Position numbers and translations under genes: made by a program
Notes under the pieces: model-generated
The model's database searches: none
What the model was told of the DNA's origin: nothing
The model's input: the letters and a program-made list of their open reading frames with translations, nothing else
Source: Haliotis asinina
Taxonomy: Eukaryota; Mollusca; Gastropoda; Lepetellida; Haliotidae
NCBI RefSeq assembly: GCF_037392515.1
Contig: NC_090295.1
Span: 17,765,501 to 17,829,500 of the forward strand
Length of the DNA: 64,000 nt
Direction of reading: 5' to 3'
In this document: positions 27,988-39,605 of the stretch, piece after piece
Layout: every line of letters starts with the position of its first letter
How positions within the stretch are numbered: position 1 is the stretch's first letter

Positions 27988-28250
27988 TGTTATGGTTAAT
28001 AATTTTCCGTGACAAAAGGTATAAAAATCCCCTATGAACCAGCAAAACATAACACAGACAAGTCTTAAATATTCAATATTATGTATTGACGAAAGAGCAA
28101 GATACAATGATTCACAATAGGCCTTTCTAGTACAATGCAAATGAGACAATCTAAAGTAATGGATCACAAATATAATCGACTCACCAAGGTTTTGGTTTCC
28201 AGTGGGAAGCAGTTCTACTAAATCGTTCACTGCGAGCAATCTTGAATGCA
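27988..28250. mobile_element. LTR-like fragment, fossil
   Basis: Starts TGTTATGGTTAATAATTTTCC and follows the 7418 block throughout ('cccctatgaaccagcaaaa', 'gcgagca'). It abuts the broken 3' end of the LINE. A solo or broken LTR of the gypsy-type family; no interior is seen. Confidence 0.55.
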
Positions 28251-28257
28251 TTTATGA

Positions 28258-28507
28258 TGGAAACCACTTTAACACGTTACCACATAGCCCAAAACGGTCC
28301 TCTCAACACGCAATGGGCGTGTTGTGGTCTAAAGTGTCAAAGGCGGCAGACATGTCGAGAAGAACAAGCACGCTAACTTGCCCTGAGTCTGCTGCCTCAA
28401 GTAGAGCATCCATATCACTGATCAGTGCTGTTTCCGTGCTGTGATTTGGTCTATAAGCTGACTGAAAAGGATCATTAAGACCATTGTCACAAGACGAGTC
28501 TTGACAG
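28258..28507 (-). pseudogene. CR1/L2-like LINE, downstream RT piece
   Basis: On the - strand this encodes 'NDPFQSAYRPNHSTETAL' and 'VLVLLDMSAAFDTLDH', the RT motif block with the first catalytic Asp (LDMSAAFD), then 'DRFGLCGNVLKWF' in a shifted frame. It continues the RT interrupted at 38436. It is cut at its 3' side by the LTR-like repeat, so the YADD box and the 3' end are lost. The SAAFDTLDH text is typical of the CR1/L2/Rex side of the LINEs rather than RTE or Jockey. Confidence 0.85.
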
Positions 28508-28669
28508 AACACGTCACAATTTAATTCTGGACTCACAAAAGTCCAGAAACTCTCAGCACTGTGGCCACTCTCTCACAAGGGATTTCGCAAAATTAAACAG
28601 GCAGCTGTTATGTATATGTGCTAAGGACGAAAAAATGAAAAAATTTTTTTTCGAAAACTCAAAATTTAA

Positions 28670-29960
28670 ACTCGCTCGCCCATGGGCACGCCCATGGGCG
28701 AACAGTGGCCAATGAGTAGGCCTATGGGCAGGCCCATGGGCGAAAGTGTTTAATTTCATCCAGAAAAAATGTTTTGGAGGTTGTAAATGAATGAAAAAAT
28801 GTTAATAAGTATCATGACACAAATTTCAGCTTGTTGTGACTTGACTCTGCTAACTGACAGCGATTTTAAAAAATCTCGCCCATGGGTGAAAAACATGTTG
28901 GCCCATGGACGAGAATACTTAATTTCATTGAAACTACATGTTTTTTTTTCAGGCTTTGCAGTTTTTCAATAAATGAACGTGTATTTATTAGTGTCTTGAC
29001 ACGAAATTAAGCTTAGTTTGACTTAATTCGGCTAATTAAGAGTGATTTTTCAAAAAAGTCTCCCCCATGGGCGAAAACCATTTGGCCCATGGATGAGAAT
29101 ATTTACCTTTACTCAAAATACACCTTTTCCCATGTTTTGGAGGTTGTGAATGACTGAAAGTATGTTCATAAGTATCATGTCACAAAATTCAACTCATTTT
29201 GAATTAATTCCGTTAATTTAGAGCTATTTAACAAAATCTCACCCATGGGCGAAAAACATTTTGGCCCATGGGCGAGAATATTTCCTTTTACCCCAAACAC
29301 ATCTTTTCCAATATTTGGAGGATGTAAATGAATGAAAGTACATTTATGAGTATCATGACAGAAATTTCAACTCATTTTGACTTAATTCCTCTAAATGAGA
29401 GCAATTGTGAAAACTCTCGCCCATGGGAGAAAGACAGTTTGGCCCATGGGCGAGAATATTTGCCTTCACTCAAAATACATCTTTTCCTGTGGCTTGGAAG
29501 TGTAAATGAATTAGGATATATTTATGAGTATCATGGCACAAAATCCAACTCATTATGACTTAATTCTGCTAATTGAGACCGATTTTCAAAAACATCTCGC
29601 CCATGGGCGAAAAACATTGGGCCCATGAGCGAGAATATTTCCTTTTCACTCCAAATACATCTTTTCTAATGTTTTGGAGGATGTAAATGAATTAAAGTGC
29701 CATTATGAGTATCATGACACAAAATTCAACTGATTTTGACTTAATTTTGCGAGTTCAGGAAGATTTTTAAAAATATGCCAGAATAATTACTTTTACTCAA
29801 AATACATCTTTTCCTGTGTTTTGGAGGTTGTAAATGAATGAGGATACATTTGTAAGTATCATGGCACAAAATTCAACTCATTTTGACTTAATTCTGCTAA
29901 TTTGTAACAAGTACAAGAATCTGGACTTCCACTTAAATTTTCATAGTTTTTTTTATTGTC
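28670..29960. repeat. ~180-bp tandem units with GCCCATGGGC hairpins (left arm)
   Basis: Six or seven units spaced 170-188 bp apart (hairpins at about 28877, 29059, 29247, 29417 and 29597, with degenerate units after). In good units CTCGCCCATGGGC and GCCCATGGGCGAG flank a loop of about 13 nt, giving a 13-bp stem. Between hairpins runs a conserved ~140-bp spacer ('gagtatcatgacacaaaatt', 'cattttgacttaatt'). Confidence 0.88.
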
Positions 29961-30146
29961 TTGGGGGTTGAAAATATATGAATGAAAGTGTGTTTATAAA
30001 TATCATGACCAAAAAAATGAAATCATTCCGGTCTTAATTCGACTAATCTCGCTCGTGGACGAAAATATTTTCGTTTGCTTGTTTTCTTTATTTTGCAAAC
30101 ATGTGGTTTAAAAATAGATGAAATTCTAATGACAATTCAGTTTAAT

Positions 30147-30380
30147 TTCGTGAGTTTAGTTTTATGTCGCACTCAGCAATATCCCAGCAATATGGCGGCG
30201 GTTTCTAGATAATCGAGTTTGGATCAGACAATCTAGTGATCAACAGCATGAGCATCGACCTGCACAATTGGGAACTGATGACATGTGTCAGCAAAAGTCA
30301 GCGAGCCTGACCACCCCATCCCGTTAGTCGCCTCTTACGACAAGCATAGTCGCCTTTTATGGCAAGCATGGGCTGTTGAA
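30147..30380 (-). mobile_element. SINE-A inside the left arm
   Basis: The counterpart of 37084-37345 in the other arm, so it was present before the arms became inverted copies or was spread by conversion. The head end is deleted here. Confidence 0.88.
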
Positions 30381-30966
30381 GCTCTTTACTTCCAGCAACA
30401 TATACAGTACACTTAGAATACTACGCCTTGAGATTCTTTTGAATTTAGGTATTCAACCTATATCTATGAAGTTGAAGTTATTTGTGAAAGCCCTAATCAA
30501 GAGTGACCAAACTCCAGTGACTATGCTGGGACACATCAGGGATACTCTCTATATAGGCTCCCTGGACACATTAATAAACGGTGTTGTGAGATCTTTAAAC
30601 TGTATTGAAATATGTCTTGTCAATTCCACTGACATTCGCCAAATGTACCTACCTAGTAGTTTTAAGTGTACCTACCCAGTTTAGCATGTTTCGTTTTAAT
30701 AGTGTGGTCTCCATTTTTAGTAATTCCCGTTTGCCAGTCCCGGCTTTTCTTCGTCCGAGGTTGTATGGGGTATTCTCCTATTTGTCAGACCAGAAATTAT
30801 CTACAACAGGGGTAGGTCACTCGCTTGTTTTCTGTACCATTTGTACTAATTAGTATGCGCCTCCTCATGCTCCAATGCACACAGTGACCTGATTCGTCTC
30901 CATCGCAACTTAGGCTGCGTTTAACAGTACTTCAGCTAGTTTACTGTATCAGTCGAAATCTTACAA

Positions 30967-31150
30967 TGAATGAATGAATGAATGAATGAATGAATGAATG
31001 AATGAATGAATGAATGAATGAAGAGCAAGAAGTATATGTGAATGAATGAAAGAAATGATAAAAGAAAGAAGTACATATGTGAATGAATGAGAAAGATATA
31101 ATAAAAGAAAGAAGTACATATGTGAATGAATGAAAGAATAAATGATACAC
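30967..31150. repeat. (AATG)n microsatellite and derived repeats
   Basis: A 56-bp run of TGAA units, then looser 'gtgaatgaatgaaagaa' repeats. The right arm has the mirrored tract at about 36417-36510, much shorter. Confidence 0.92.
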
Positions 31151-31455
31151 CACGGCTATCCCTTCCAAAAGAACGCAAAACTATCGTTAGATCACATGTG
31201 TTAACATCAGCTTGTTATTGTCTCCCTGGTCAGACGTAACAATTGTCAGACAGGCTAAAACAACAAACTATCTGGTTGACTGCACAGCTGCCTGTTGACG
31301 TAGTATACCCACATCACCTACTTTTCCTGCGTAACCTTCATCTACATCACCACCCATTAATCTTAAAACATCTAACAAGCTCAACGCATGCATCTTTTTA
31401 TTAAAATGTGATGTTATACATAATCATAAGAGTATTTTTATGTATTATTCAGTTG

Positions 31456-31559
<104 letters not shown>

Positions 31560-32247
31560 ACACGCTGGACAGGTTTAGGGCATTTTGTGTTAATTTACCA
31601 TTACCATTTTCATAATGCTTTAAAAAGACACTCATTAATCTATCACAGAGTTTTGTCATTCCTTCACTCCAACATGGTTGCTAAATCCCCTATGATCATA
31701 GTATATCGACTCTACCATACCCAATTCACCGAATCCTGAGAAATCAACCAGTCATGACATACCCACATCGCCTAAATAATTTTCCGTACCTATCGAGTTA
31801 AAAATACATAAAATGGGAGGACGCCTTGTTAACTAATGGGAGTGAGTCTTGTAGGGAGTACCCTCACTCTCACAAACCCACGTATTGAGGAGAAGCGGCC
31901 GTGTTTGTCGGGGATTTTTCTGGCTTTGCTAAATAAATCGTACATAAACATGTAAAATATTTTGCTTTGATTCTGTAACTACCCACATTATGACACTGAG
32001 ACCAGTTTCATTTATCTAGTAAAATACGATTGAATAGTTTTGAGTTTGAATCTTGCCACTTTAGCGCTCTATCTTTTTAAATGATGCATGCATGCTAATA
32101 TTTAGGTGGTTTTTAGTATTCCATCTATTTGTTTAAATTAATTGATTTGTCTGTTTTTGCTTTGTTTGGTTTTTTTATTGCTAGTGGCCTAGCGAGTGAG
32201 TCTGCTTTGGTACCTGTAAATTTATTCGGACGTTTGACGAGCGGGAC

Positions 32248-35200
32248 GTAAACAAGAACATATATGGAGCCCCTGCATCAGTACTTATTAAAGTGTTTGA
32301 AACATTATTCTAGACCAGTATTTGTACACAACTGATGAAATGTACCTGAAAGATCAAGGTTAATAAGAACGTACAGGGCACATTTCTCCTACCCCATTTA
32401 AGAATGTCCATTTCTGATTGGTTCACGTGGCCTTGCGAGGGATAATAGATCATTAAGTTTTACCCCGCCACGTGGGAAAAGCCTGCATCCTCGGCAGTCA
32501 GTGAACTGTAAAGCAGTGGTTCGAATCGAGTATAGTTAGTACCATCTTAATATAATACATGGTTCCAGCTTGTTTTGAGGCTCTATTTACATAAAGTGAT
32601 ATTTAAACATTCGTTATGGTAAATACGGTCTAGCAATGTGATGAAGAGTATGCGGGTTTTCTTCATCACATTTCATCCACCGATGAGAATGGTGGTATCC
32701 TCTTTTGGTTCACACCCGGATTGTCGATTGTTTTATCAAATACACAACAGGACTGTCGAAAAGCAGTGGAGTGTGACAGTGCTCAACACTGTTCTAATGA
32801 CACCCGGAGCGTCGACTGCCTTGGAGAACTTGTGCCCGAGAATAGCAGAAGACTCGTCTCTACGCTAATTAACGAGCTAAAACACACACACAAAGACATC
32901 GGTGAAAGAATGAGCTGTGGAACCAATTCCTGAAAGATAGTCGTCGCACGAACAGTAGTCGAGAAAGTTGGCGTCATCGTGAATCGAGGGTCTGAGAGCA
33001 TTGTAAACAGCATATTGTGACAGGGGCCACAATAAAGAATAAAGAAGAACTTGACAGAAGGCTTCAGCGTCTCAACGAGCAGCTCCAAAGACAAGAGATT
33101 TCCGTAATGAGCTGTGCTCATCAGACCGTCTGCCTCGCTCATAGTGACCACATTACTGTACTTTATAACGTATTTGGTTTTCCTTCATGTTCGGAGCGTC
33201 GAACGCCATAGTGTTGACACCTGATTATCTCCTCACGTAATACCCGAAACATCGAATTTACAAAAATTTCAATTCAATTTTAGACAGCCCAGGCAAGTCG
33301 TTTGTTTAAGGAGTAAGAGGATTAGGAGACATGGTCGACTAGATTTCTTTGTTTAATTAATCCCACACGGCCTTCACCAATAGAGGGAATGATTTCTGTT
33401 CAGTTATGACATTGCTGTTCTCCATATGTCTCCATTTTCTCCACACATCTCCATGTTGTTGTATATTTGTGTGTTTTGTAACTCTGATTGGGACTGGTGA
33501 ACAAGCTTTACAGTACCTCACCCATACAGCATATAATACAAAATATAAATGAAGCATGTGTCGTCATCCATATGAACTATCATATAATAACAAAGGCATA
33601 CATATCATTACATCAAATACAACTATCACATAAGTAAACATGAAAAATAGAGTTATGGTTTGTTGTGTCTGACTAGCTCTTTGTAGAAACACTGAACATT
33701 TGTGAGAAGGTTTTTGACAAGTTAATTAGTTTCCTGTTAAAAAATTAAAAATCAAGCTTTGTGTTTTATGATAAAATCGTAGACGGATTCAACTATTTTC
33801 TGGTTTTCACAGTGAATAAGTTCTTTTCCGTTCACCGATGTCATCATAGACCACAGTGAGAAAAGGTCGATCTTCAAGCAGTAAGGAAGACCATGATAGC
33901 GTATGGAGTACGTGTGTCTTGGTCATCTCCTCCGTTACCCCCTCCCCCGAATCCACACCCCACCAGGGCGTGTAGGACTTGTCTCGGTGGATAAAAAGGG
34001 ACTCCTATAGCCCCATATATCCCTAATCACAATGCTATAATTTGTCGTGTTTGTGTATCCGGTTTTGTGTATTCTGTAATATTGTATAGTACTGGTGAAG
34101 TGTTAATCAAAGCAATATTTTACTTGCTAAACGAACCACGTTCTTTGAGAATCAAAATATGTTTTAAGCACATTTCCAAAATTGAAATGCAGCATGCACA
34201 CAATAACTAAATTGGAAGGAATATCGTGCCGGACAAGGTTTTCCAGAGCACCTGCACATAAATGTCAATGTCTTTCAAAGACTAATATGTGCAGGTCTTG
34301 CAAAAGGACAAAGCAGGTATGCTTGACAAAGTTCTTGCGAAGGAGGTTTATACACAACACCAAAACCAACTGGTCAGCTCGACGCCTTATAAAACAATCA
34401 ATTCGAGATTTCCTTTGAATGTGAGATATTTGGCTGCGCGTCTTGCGCAATCAGTCTTTTTCATCCATATACACTCACGAACACCTGTTCATTTCAAAGC
34501 TGGTGTCCCCTAATGACCTAATGTGATCCATGGATGAATTTTGTATATGACAAGTAAAATACACTTGAAAGCGGCAGCTGTTTTACTCCAATAAACAAAC
34601 CAGCGGACGAGACATGACTTCCGGTGCAAATTGTCGTAGGCGCTTTGCGGAAATTACGTAAGTGAACGCGGAAGAAACAGAAAGCGTCATCGTTCCGCTC
34701 AGTTTCCATTGTCTTTGCGAGTTATGCTGAGATATTCAACAAACTGAGATAAAAGTCAAAATGATGAAAAAGTGGAAATCAGTGTGTGGATTAGAACTTG
34801 AAAATCACTCATGAAGTCTTTGACAAAGTAATATCTGTTCAGGTCATGATCATTTGGAAAAAAACACGAAAGTTCTATGGATATACAACTTCTTATAAGG
34901 TAAGCAGCATTTCGGCGTAGCTGTTAAACTCGTTATCAAGAAAGGGATATCTTACAGGTAGTCCTGTAAGTTAAACATTTGTTTTAGGTCGAGGTCAAAA
35001 TCGTTTGGTGTAGTGACAACGGTGTTGTTTTATGGGATTAGACACGGATTTTCTATAAAAAAAGTAAAATGTGTGTCCTCAGGAAACGAAATAAGACACG
35101 TGTACCAGAATGTAAGTGAATCGATGTTAGCGAGTTCAGTCAGTGACTTCAGTTAATAAAATGGGCTTTCAGTTCACTCCTTCCATTAGTAATGAGTTAT

Positions 35201-35744
35201 TTAGTTTCTTGATAAAATTGCTTGCAAGGTGAATGTTGAAAATGACAGTTTTCAGGATCATTTTAACAACGTCAGTTATGGCAAATGTGCTGCTATGCTA
35301 TGTCCTACTTATTTTACGGGAAGATACCTTTGTGTAAACAGCTATATGTTCATTTTGAGAACTGGTAAAAAGGGAGAATATATCTCGTGAAAATGAATTT
35401 TGAAAGACTGCAGATCAACAGTTCTAGTTGTCTCAACAACATAATTTCTAAAATACTTAGAGACCACAATCACGAAAGCCAAAGTAAATCTTTTCGAGTG
35501 TAGCAAAAATAGTGAAAATTTATTTAAAAAATAGAAAAGTAAACGCAAAGTCAATCTTGATTACATTACGTATTCCTCATAGCCCGATATAATGATTACA
35601 CATTAATAGTATGGATACGGTAATCTATAGTTTAAACTAATCTCCTCAAGTAATCGGGACTGGATTGGCAAGCATAAACATACATATCAATGGCGCTCCA
35701 TACCAATAATATAATTACATAACATACATGATGACAACACTTCA
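32248..35744. other. Unique core of the foldback element
   Basis: This 3.5 kb lies between the arms. No DDE, tyrosine recombinase, Rep or RT motif was recognised on either strand. Small open frames with some protein character are 32721-32933 (+; 'LVPENSRRLVSTLINELKH'), 33017-33211 (+; a coiled-coil-like 'KEELDRRLQRLNEQLQRQ') and 34182-34418 (+; Cys cluster C-x-C-x6-C-x2-C-x6-C within 'KCQCLSKTNMCRSCKRTKQV'). They could be scraps of one decayed or spliced gene, or captured host DNA. Stops separate them, so no intact gene is claimed. Confidence 0.5.
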
Positions 35745-38431
35745 TGTTCCGCTCGTCAAACGTCAGAAATAAATTAATAAATCCAAATGAATAGATGGAA
35801 TACTAAAAACCACCAAAATATGCACGCCCCCTTTAAAAGGGCAGAGTGCAAAAGTGGCAAACCGGTAAAATATGCCAAGATTCAAACTCAAAACTATACA
35901 ATCGTATTTTACTCGATAAATCAGAATGGTCTCAATGTCATAATGTGGGTAGTTACAGAATCGAAGCAAAATATTGTACACATATGTATCATGAAATAAT
36001 AATTTATCAACTGAATAATACATAAAAAATACTCTTATGATATGTATAACATCACATTTGAGTAAAAAAATGCATGCGTTGAGCTTGTTAGATGTTTTAA
36101 AGATTAATGGAATAGGTAGGAAAGGACACCCCCACTTGGGAACTTGGGAGCAGAGAGACGCCACGGTTCAGTGGTTACAGCTATAGGGCCTTCTGTGCTC
36201 TCTGCTCAATATATTAAGGGTGGTGATGTAGATCAAGGTTACGCAGGAAAAGTAGGTGATGTGGGTATTCTACGTCAACAGGCAGCTGTGCAGTCAACCA
36301 GATAGTTTGTTGTTTTAGCCTGTCTGACAATTGTTACGTCTGACCAGGGAGACAATAACAAGCTGATGTTAACACATGTGATCTAACAATAGTTTTGCGT
36401 TCTTTAGCATGTTTTTATTCTTTCATTCATTCACATATGTACTTCTTTCTTTTATCATTTCTTTCATTCATTCACATATACTTCTTGCTCTTCATTCATT
36501 CATTCATTCATTGTAAGATTTCGACTGATACAGTAAACTGGCTGAAGTACTGTTAAACGCAGCCTAAGTTGCGATGGAGACGAATCAGGTCACTGTGTGC
36601 ATTGGAGCATGAGAAGGCGCATACTAATTAGTACAAATAGTAAAAAAACAAGCGAGTGACCTACCCCTGTTGTAGATTATTTCTGGTCTGACAAATAGGA
36701 GAATACCCCATAAAACCTCGGACGAAGAAAAGTCGGGACTGGCAAACGGGAATTACTAAAATTGGAGACCACACTATTAAAACGAAACATGCTAAACTGG
36801 GTAGGTACACTTAAAACTACTAGGTAGGTACATTTGGCGAATGTCAGTGGAATTGACAAGACACATTTCAATACAGTTTAAAGATCTCACAACACCGTTT
36901 ATTAATGTGTCCCAGCATAGTCACTGGAGTTTGGTCACTCTTGATTAGGGCTTTCACAAATAACTTCAACTTCATAGATATAGGTTGAATTTTGGTATAT
37001 TTATAGAATACCTAAATTCAAAAGAATCACAAGGCTTAGTATTCTAAGTGTACTGTATATGTTGCTGGAAGTAAAGCTCTGTGTTCGGGACCCGTGAAGA
37101 TCTGGAGTAGAAGAGGGCTTCAACAACCCATGCTTGCCATAAAAGGCGACTATGCTTGTCGTAAGAGGCGACTAACGGGATGGGGTGGTCAGGCTCGCTG
37201 ACTTTTGCTGACACATGTCATCAGTTCCCAATTGTGCAGGTCGATGCTCATGCTGTTGATCACTAGATTGTCTGACCCAAACTCGACTATCTAGAAACCG
37301 CCGCCATATTGCTGGGATATTGCATAAAACTAAACTCACGAAATTAAACTGAATTGTCATTAGAATTTCATCTATTATTTCATCTAAAGAAAACAAGCAA
37401 ACGAAAATATTTTCGTCCACGAGCGAGATTAGTCGAATTAAGACCGGAATGATTTCATTTTTTTGGTCATGATACTTATAAACACACTTTCATTTATAAA
37501 TTTACAACCCCCAAGACAATAAAAAAAACTATGAAAATTTAAGTGGAAGTCCAGATTCTTGTACTTGTTACAAATTAGCAGAATTAAGTCAAAATGAGTT
37601 GAATTTTGTGTCATGATACTTACAAATATATCCTCATTCATTTACAACCCCCAAAACACAGGAAACGATGTATTTTGAGTAAAAGTAATTATTCTGGCAT
37701 ATTTTTTAAAAATCTTCCTGAACTCGCAAAAGTAAGTCAAAATCAGTTGAATTTTGTGTCATGATACTCATAATGGCACTTTAATTCATTTACATCCTCC
37801 AAAACATTAGAAAAGATGTATTTGGAGTGAAAAGGAAATATTCTCGCTCATGGGCCAAATGGTTTTCGCCCATGGGGGAGACTTTTTTGAAAAATCACTC
37901 TTAATTAGCCGAATTAAGTCAAACTAAGCTTAATTTCGTGTCAAGACACTAATAAATACACGTTCATTTATTGAAAAACTGCAAAGCCTGGAAAAAAACA
38001 TGTAGTTTCAATGAAATTAAGTATTCTCGTCCATGGGCCAACATGTTTTTCACCCATGGGCGAGATTTTTTAAAATCGCTGTCAGTTAGCAGAGTCAAGT
38101 CACAACAAGCTGAAATTTGTGTCATGATACTTATTAACATTTTTTCATTCATTTACAACCTCCAAAACATTTATTCTGGATGAAATTAAACACTTTCGCC
38201 CATGGGCCTGCCCATGGGCCTACTCATTGGCCACTGTTCGCCCATGGGCGTGCCCATGGGCGAGCGAGTTTAAATTTTGAGTTTTCGAAAAAATTTTTTT
38301 TCATTTTTTCGTCCTTAGCATATATACATAACAGCTGCCTGTTTAATTTTGCGAAATCCCTTGTGAGAGAGTGGCCACAGTGCTGAGAGTTTCTGGACTT
38401 TTGTGAGTCCAGAATTAAATTGTGACGTGTT
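35745..38431 (-). repeat. Right inverted arm of the foldback element
   Basis: Reverse complement of the left arm. It is shorter by about three 180-bp units and lacks the TA tract, but holds a private insertion of about 110 bp around 36108-36222. The outermost kilobase differs from the left arm at only a few positions. Confidence 0.87.
37084..37345 (+). mobile_element. SINE-A inside the right arm
   Basis: Full head (ACCCGTGAAGATCTGGAG) to tail; the mirrored partner of 30147-30380. Confidence 0.9.
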
Positions 38432-38435
38432 ACAG

Positions 38436-39605
38436 CCTTTTCCAAGAGCTTCAACACATAGGAAAGGTTAGATACGGGTCTATAATTAGCTAGATCTTCG
38501 GTATCTAGTCCATTCCTCTTCAATATAGGTTTCACTAAAGCACTTTTTAAAGACGATGGGACATACCCAATGGAAAGACTGAGGTTTATCATCTTGGTAA
38601 AAACTGGCAAATGAATATCCAGGAATTCAAGCATAAACCATGTTGGAATTGGAGCCAGAATGCAGTAGGTGTGTTTTGATTGAGCAATGATTTTTCTAAC
38701 TTCAGCCTCACTCAAGGGTATAAAGTTGTCAAGATGAGTCTGACAAGAGGAATGTGAGAGTTGTGGAATGGAGGCTGGAACAGTTCCATCCAAGTCCAGG
38801 AGGATCTTGGGAATCTTGTTTGAAAAGTGATTACAAAATTCTTCTGTAAGAGATGATACATCTGATGTGTGTGGAAGACTAGAGTCCTTCTTGCCCAGAA
38901 CGGATGACATGAAGTCATAGAGAGCCTTCATGGACGTGGACTCCTTCACTTGAGACAGACAATAATCTGCCTTGGCTTTCCGAATCATCATGGCTGTTGA
39001 GTTCCGTGCCGACTTAAAGATCTGTCTGTCGACTTCCAGTTTAGACTTTCGCCAATTCCTCTCAGTCTTTCTGCGATTTTTCCTTTCAGTAGCAACTTCC
39101 TTGGAGTAGAAAGGGATGCTCAATCTCTCTGGGATACTCTTGATAGTACAGGGCGAATGTTTCTCAAGGAGTTGAGTCATGGTGGTGTCGCATGACTCAA
39201 AAAAGGACTCAGCATCTGAAAAGTCCTTTTGTAAGAGGTCTGACTGCAGAAGATCATGACGAAATTCTTCTCTATTCACGCGTTTGATCTTACGGTTGCT
39301 TGATCGGTGGTTCAGGAAGTTTCATGAAGAGGGTTGCTAATACAGCATGGTGATCAGACTGACAGCAGACATCTGACAGTCGACAACTGACATGTTCTTT
39401 ACAAGGTTATCATCTAGCCGGGTGATCACCCAGTCAAGAGTGTGTCCATATCGATGGGTTGGTTCTGCCACATGTTGGACTAACTCATGAGATTCCAGAA
39501 GCTTGACAATTTTCTTCACTGTTGGGTCATGGGGGTTATCATAGTGAAGATTGAAATCTCCTAGTAATAGAAGATTCCTCGGTTTGATTTTCATTAGGAG
39601 ATCGG
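38436..39605 (-). pseudogene. CR1/L2-like LINE, endonuclease and upstream RT piece
   Basis: Reading on the - strand from 39594, 'LLLLGDFNLHYDN' and 'THRYGHTLDWVITR' are the C-terminal part of an APE-type endonuclease. After a frame change at about 39310-39340 the linker and RT N-terminus follow (39279 to 38436), ending in 'LANYRPVSNLSYVLKLLEKA'. The copy is 5'-truncated at about 39605. An apparent 351-codon frame runs on into the foldback arm down to 38224; those last residues are not LINE. The RT resumes at 28507. Confidence 0.87.

Follow-up and report, generated by a model that had tools for sequence, protein, structure and literature searches.

Foldback (FB) elements of Drosophila have kilobase-long inverted arms that consist partly of tandem repeats, and they are flanked by 9-bp target-site duplications; the duplications of Academ, Sola and Chapaev elements are 4 bp long. 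In the available excerpts of one account of Galileo (PMC4168063), a 9-kb copy that has no transposase segment carries terminal inverted repeats of up to 4.2-4.7 kb, and the arms contain tandem units of roughly 140 bp as well as pieces of foreign transposable elements (TEs). The same excerpts describe Galileo's non-autonomous copies as abundant, with 191 copies of strongly varying structure in D. willistoni, and give duplications of 7 bp (8 bp in three copies), the element being classed by its P-type transposase (PMC4168063). For Ginger1 and Ginger2, the portions of text available report 4-bp duplications and TGTNR ends, Ginger1 targeting CCGG or CCGT (PMC2836005), and in the part seen of a survey of TEs, Academ and Sola were restricted to bivalves among the molluscs analysed (PMC10294476). 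Here we describe an element of 9,924 bp that lies within a 64,000-nt stretch of contig NC_090295.1 of the abalone Haliotis asinina (hereafter the window, whose positions serve as coordinates) and that has kilobase inverted arms around a core. We consider it very probable (about 0.88) that this block belongs, as one copy, to a family of foldback-like DNA transposons that is young, present in high copy number, non-autonomous and moved in trans.

The family is new and its structural kind is known; its abundance, uniformity and youth are what set it apart. No description of it was found in the portions available of the open-licence literature, mostly titles and starts of abstracts, Repbase being outside that scope, and no paper there paired Haliotis with foldback elements. 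Of 46 papers whose text contains the 10-bp end, the 15 listed appear by their titles to be unrelated.

Evidence for a mobile, high-copy family

The element occupies positions 28508-38431, with ends that read 5'-AACACGTCAC...GTGACGTGTT-3' and, directly from the sequence, ACAG on both sides. Its exact 27-bp end has 654 matches in the containing genome (1.143 Gb, to which the contig labels C1, C2, C4, C5 and C15 refer), 332 of them forward and 322 reverse, against 0 for a reversed-pattern control. Genome-wide first-look searches gave 1141 candidates when run with the outer 201 bp and 670 when run with 801 bp of the core, both rough numbers because only 40 were scored in each, and the end and core counts combined suggest that the family may comprise about 600 copies.

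Ends were paired for 100 of the 654 exact 27-bp matches, an opposite-strand partner being sought within 33 kb, and 33 pairs resulted: 27 span 8.8-12.6 kb, five span 18.9-32.8 kb and one spans 1.2 kb. The same layout of arms and core was present in seven further full-length copies at other places in the genome, in which the main aligned parts of the core pieces are 94-98% identical to those of the window copy and one 368-bp piece is 92% identical. When the interiors of 28 end pairs were sampled, core sequence appeared in 25 at first sampling. It was found in 12/12 pairs of the second batch and in 13 of 16 C1 pairs (20 stretches), one of these with only 54 bp of core and one mostly arm. Two of the remaining three C1 pairs gave only other elements or arm, and the third is the 1.2-kb derivative without a core; later samples of the C1:12593401 pair, at first without core, also yielded arm and core. 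Several hundred copies of a 10-kb form without a recognised gene are present in this genome. A short copy of 1.5 kb with TATT on both sides was also seen at C15:3022300-3032200 (L026), in a stretch that has 2,701 N, perhaps a gap.

Flanks were compared for 22 end pairs, comprising the eight full-length copies (including that of the window), two short copies, ten further pairs and two long pairs. A direct duplication of at least 4 bp borders 20 of the 22, being exactly 4 bp in 18, 5 bp in one and 7 bp in another that lies inside a microsatellite. The duplicated bases are variable and AT-rich, and none of the pairs read has the TTAA of classic Kolobok and piggyBac. Duplications of constant length together with inverted ends in many copies, the mark of a class II DNA transposon, are thus what the family displays.

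The window copy sits inside a long interspersed nuclear element (LINE), which made it possible to look for the uninterrupted site. Of the 18 places scored with the joined flanks as query, two were the window's own half-sites, and the other 16 matches span the junction. In two LINE paralogues aligned base by base (L111 and L112), a single ACAG stands at the insertion point, which is the empty site; they differ from the window copy by 13 bp at a point 19 bp away from this ACAG. Given 654 exact ends against 0 in the control, seven further copies and the empty sites in L111 and L112, the block goes beyond what chance or an assembly artefact would give.

Anatomy of the window copy

The outermost 440 nt of the two arms (28508-28947 and 37992-38431) are 99% complementary. 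Inward of them, among the matches listed (25 of 66), the arms match in colinear inverted blocks of 80-327 nt at 90-100% identity, and the other matches among those listed, at 71-85%, are between different tandem units. The innermost colinear block is 78% identical and ends at 32148/35771. Because colinear matching, though gapped, reaches this point, the arms are taken to be 3.64 and 2.66 kb long and the core 3.62 kb. The features of the element and its immediate surroundings are as follows.

28303-28506, minus strand: interrupted host LINE, reverse transcriptase (RT) fragment (weak RVT_1 match, E 4.5e-5; its 23.7 bits fall short of the curated cut-off, 29.6)
28504-28507, no strand: left target-site duplication ACAG (from sequence, flank comparison and empty site)
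28508-32148, plus strand: left inverted arm, 3.64 kb, matching broken by gaps (self-comparison)
28508-28742, plus strand: outermost 235 bp starting AACACGTCAC; identity between copies 98.6-98.9% (eight copies)
28525-28548, plus strand: perfect 9-bp hairpin TTCTGGACT / AGTCCAGAA with a 6-nt loop, just inside the end (predicted fold)
28768-29746, plus strand: 178-bp tandem units, 5.4 copies, left arm
30150-30390, plus strand: dispersed repeat resembling a short interspersed nuclear element (SINE-like; named by eye), within the left arm
30965-31022, plus strand: (AATG)n microsatellite, left arm; the right arm has a shorter one
31462-31556, plus strand: (TA)n microsatellite, left arm, on its inner side; listed for this arm alone
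32149-35770, no strand: unique core, no gene recognised (scans of open reading frames (ORFs) and Pfam, comparison of copies)
35771-38431, minus strand: right inverted arm, 2.66 kb
37089-37339, minus strand: SINE-like repeat, mirrored copy, right arm
38432-38435, no strand: right target-site duplication ACAG
38436-39321, minus strand: interrupted host LINE, other side; open frame, no Pfam match

The foldback-like structure, in which a core lies between kilobase inverted arms that contain tandem repeats, occurs in the window copy and in the seven other full-length copies. The spacing of the unit motif indicates that the right arm has fewer 178-bp tandem units than the left. The mirrored SINE-like repeat is present in 15/16 arms, which fits either an early duplication of the arm or later copying between arms. 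The repeat of 30150-30390 has many more matches elsewhere in the window (572-61235), on both strands and at about 70-90% identity. An Rfam scan of 28001-39000 gave nothing at gathering score.

An earlier note on this DNA had described arms of about 3.7 and 2.7 kb around a core of 3.5 kb, and the arms and core are real, with boundaries slightly revised above; the ends and the ACAG on both sides that it gave are likewise present in the sequence. It had also placed the element in a young group with long repetitive inverted arms as in FB and Galileo and another duplication length, and both points hold, with recurrent copies, three of them nearly identical (see below), and a duplication of 4 bp. 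The check it had proposed, a search for the same ends elsewhere with differing ACAG-like 4-bp flanks, came out as predicted in 20 of the 22 end pairs read. Neither of the two outcomes that it had named as fatal, ends that do not recur or an arm created by assembly, was encountered, given the number of exact ends and the clean empty site.

Age of the family and exchange between arms

Three copies at different sites, with the duplications TTTG, AAAA and CTAT, are 99.47-99.72% identical over 10.4-10.5 kb, and other pairs of full-length copies are 95.98-98.24% identical. Across the 8-copy alignment, the 200-bp windows at either end are the least diverse (1.16% and 0.60%), the others ranging from 1.26 to 7.20%; by part, diversity is 3.09% in the left arm, 2.44% in the core and 2.66% in the right arm. 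The copy at C5:7122496 was considered as a fresh daughter and rejected, its core being 100% identical (rounded, over 801 bp) and the rest 98.2-98.5%, with the right end not found in the piece read.

Arm divergence was computed on three concatenated arm segments from the 16 arms of the eight copies. The mean is 1.44% within a copy, compared with 2.18% between copies for arms of the same side and 2.30% for arms of opposite sides, and random re-pairings of arms were as close as the real pairing in 4/20,000 cases.

Coding capacity and the search for a transposase

In all eight full-length copies, stop-to-stop frames are at most 163 amino acids long. A Pfam scan of 10 ORFs from the core and arms found nothing above cut-off, and a six-frame scan of the window copy, in which stops were read as X, likewise found nothing above cut-off and no trace of a transposase. 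These results agree with a probably non-autonomous element, a possibility that the earlier note had raised.

That note had also expected longer copies to show the transposase, and in this it was not borne out. The five end pairs 18.9-32.8 kb apart were checked as larger copies that might be a transposase source, one being read whole and three sampled, with C2:32461870-32494662 left out. The one read whole, C2:32331881-32364673, is an ordinary copy, flanked on each side by AATA, that nested retroelements have enlarged. It contains three related LINEs in the same orientation, with a gag-like ORF with zinc knuckles (recognised by eye) and a tail of TGAG units; the one that was scanned encodes an endonuclease, an RT and an RNase H. 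A further LINE in this copy, with an RVT_1 match, we take to be CR1-like. Target specificity of the recurrent nested LINE was considered and rejected: in this copy its insertion points lie at different core positions, and it is therefore treated as an abundant LINE. An end pair equal in size to this 32.8-kb copy lies 130 kb away (C2:32461870-32494662), and the two are possibly a segmental duplication.

On the stretches sampled, the three other pairs were also rejected as sources. Samples from C1:16669855-16688719 gave a core/arm edge and a LINE piece (by eye), those from C1:9289578-9312296 a LINE piece (by eye) and arm, and those from C1:12593401-12625530 a LINE, a DNA polymerase B fragment, arm and core. 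The polymerase B fragment, which belongs to Polinton/Maverick-like DNA, matches PF03175 with E 1.1e-5 and 25.0 bits, just short of the 25.8-bit cut-off.

Partners were also sought through shorter matches to the ends. The exact 17-bp end has 730 matches in the genome against 654 for the 27-bp end, so that there is no large second family with the exact 17 bp in common. Six listed ones of the 76 extra ends were read (L113-L118). Family arm sequence is carried by L115 (92% identity) and by L113 and L114 (about 79-81%, in L113 over <200 bp); L117 is a family end adjoining a BEL/Pao-like RT fragment, recognised by eye, and in L116 a different repeat is joined at base 64. The last, L118/L119 (C2:4775297-4778000), is a diverged 42-bp end, 86% identical and with the inner hairpin broken, on DNA that occurs once in the genome; no Pfam match above cut-off was found in the adjoining 2.15 kb, and it is possibly a relic or a single-copy relative. 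An IMG/VR scan for the 20-bp end gave no match.

Proposed mechanism and points against it

If the family is moved in trans, a transposase made elsewhere in the genome would recognise the terminal couple of hundred bp, excise the element and insert it at a target cut with a stagger of 4 bases. Added 178-bp units, along with an inserted SINE-like sequence, may have lengthened the arms, which the tandem units would also let shrink. Occasional exchange from arm to arm, by gene conversion or by recombination within a chromatid, would copy changes across the arms, and the core would be carried along as a noncoding spacer.

Several observations weigh against this account. A transposase was found neither in the window copy nor in the partner candidates, in a search that had models for Academ, Sola and Chapaev outside its scope, and since none was found, mobilisation in trans and the kind of enzyme are what we infer. 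No opposite exact end lies within 33 kb of 34 of the 100 ends listed, and at eight unpaired ends the sequence 4.5 kb further in was core in three cases, a LINE (by eye) in four and without a match in one. Two of the 22 end pairs are without a direct duplication, one having no exact repeat and the other inverted flanks. As to exchange between arms, an arm's own partner is its nearest relative in only 7/16 cases (1.07 expected), so exchange has not been uniform. The arms of the youngest group (C12a, C12b and C3a) cluster by side, left ones together and right ones together, and in segment inner2, one of four taken singly, identity is 97.61% within copies against 97.62% between left arms. These mixed results lead us to place arm-to-arm exchange in particular periods or in source copies, rather than to regard it as constant.

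Alternative explanations

The alternative that survives best is that a known superfamily with 4-bp duplications of variable sequence gave rise to the family as a non-autonomous derivative, Kolobok/KolobokP being the best lead; we regard it as unlikely. As described in the available part of PMC9587614, KolobokP has RR..YY termini, solo long terminal direct repeats (LTDRs) with duplications of 3-4 or 4-5 bp and no strong target preference, and it is present in two Haliotis species. The window copy and the seven other full-length copies run AA...TT, which agrees with RR/YY, a criterion of only two bases that is true by selection in pairs picked through the 27-bp pattern. The 4-bp duplications of the family, without fixed sequence, also fall within the 3-5 bp given for KolobokP in that source, and the genome itself contains a KolobokP-like element at C4:78168171-78172242. 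However, the repeats of this element start near GAAGTACTGTGG and finish near CCGCTTC (boundaries by eye), unlike AACACGTCAC, so that in the one element examined the ends are not in common with the window family. Moreover, the long terminal repeats of KolobokP are direct and surround a transposase and a His-Me nuclease, whereas those of the window element are inverted and no such genes were recognised in it. A scan for the 20-bp end at 6 of the 48 loci with PF20700 matches gave one match at 5 mismatches and none closer.

The C4 element (L109, L096, L110) has a PF20700 (Mutator) match with two stops, a His-Me finger nuclease on the opposite strand, and direct repeats of about 440-475 bp that are 91% identical. 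A second set of PF20700 and His-Me nuclease matches lies about 8 kb downstream.

The AACACGTCAC ends, the 9-bp hairpin inside them, the variable 4-bp duplications and the amplification of a 10-kb noncoding foldback form, rather than of short miniature inverted-repeat transposable elements, could together be marks of a transposase superfamily, or a deep lineage, that has yet to be described, a tentative proposal that we hold to be unlikely.

It seems highly improbable that the core carries, or recently carried, a gene of its own, decayed or divided into many small exons, and that the family is or was autonomous. The core is kept in all eight full-length copies and is slightly less diverse than either arm, and no copy with another core was recognised among the sampled pairs. 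However, conservation of the core is explained by the youth of the family, and the arms, being rich in repeats, align less easily; the window copy, in addition, is without the transposase trace that the six-frame scan could have given, and its ORFs are short.

An assembly artefact or a single local inverted duplication can practically be dismissed: at one of the 22 end pairs (C1:12593401-12625530) the 30 bases flanking one end read exactly as the reverse complement of the 30 that flank the other, but the family has hundreds of exact ends and direct duplications in 20 of 22 pairs, and the flanks and clean empty site of the window copy already refute such a reading there.

The flanks of C1:12593401-12625530 are inverted copies of each other, and the pair is therefore no simple insertion. 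Its exact family ends are 32.1 kb apart, with a LINE, Polinton/Maverick-like DNA, arm and core between them, and it is a larger inverted duplication, which may have arisen via the foldback arms, or an assembly error.

Significance and comparison with known systems

As a rough figure, a family of about 600 copies of 10 kb would account for something like 0.5% of the genome. Kilobase palindromes scattered over hundreds of sites could give rise to inversions and ectopic recombination, as has been reported for Galileo in the parts seen of two studies (PMC4168063, PMC2775673). The family also offers a natural system in which to measure exchange between arms, and its transposase, once found, would assign it to a superfamily with 4-bp duplications or found one.

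Among the described systems, Ginger1 and Ginger2 resemble the window family in their 4-bp duplication and, on the excerpts cited above, differ in their TGTNR ends, compared with AACAC here, and in the fixed targets of Ginger1, compared with variable ones here. Classic Kolobok targets TTAA, of which there was no instance in the 22 end pairs read here. FB elements are alike in their kilobase arms with tandem repeats and unlike in their duplication, 9 bp in FB and 4 bp here. Galileo, as far as the excerpts describe it, differs in its duplication of 7-8 bp, against 4 bp here, and in its P-type transposase, of which no equivalent was found in the window family; in its long inverted arms, its tandem units and the TE pieces within them, this member of the P superfamily of Drosophila is nevertheless the closest structural analogue of the Haliotis element.

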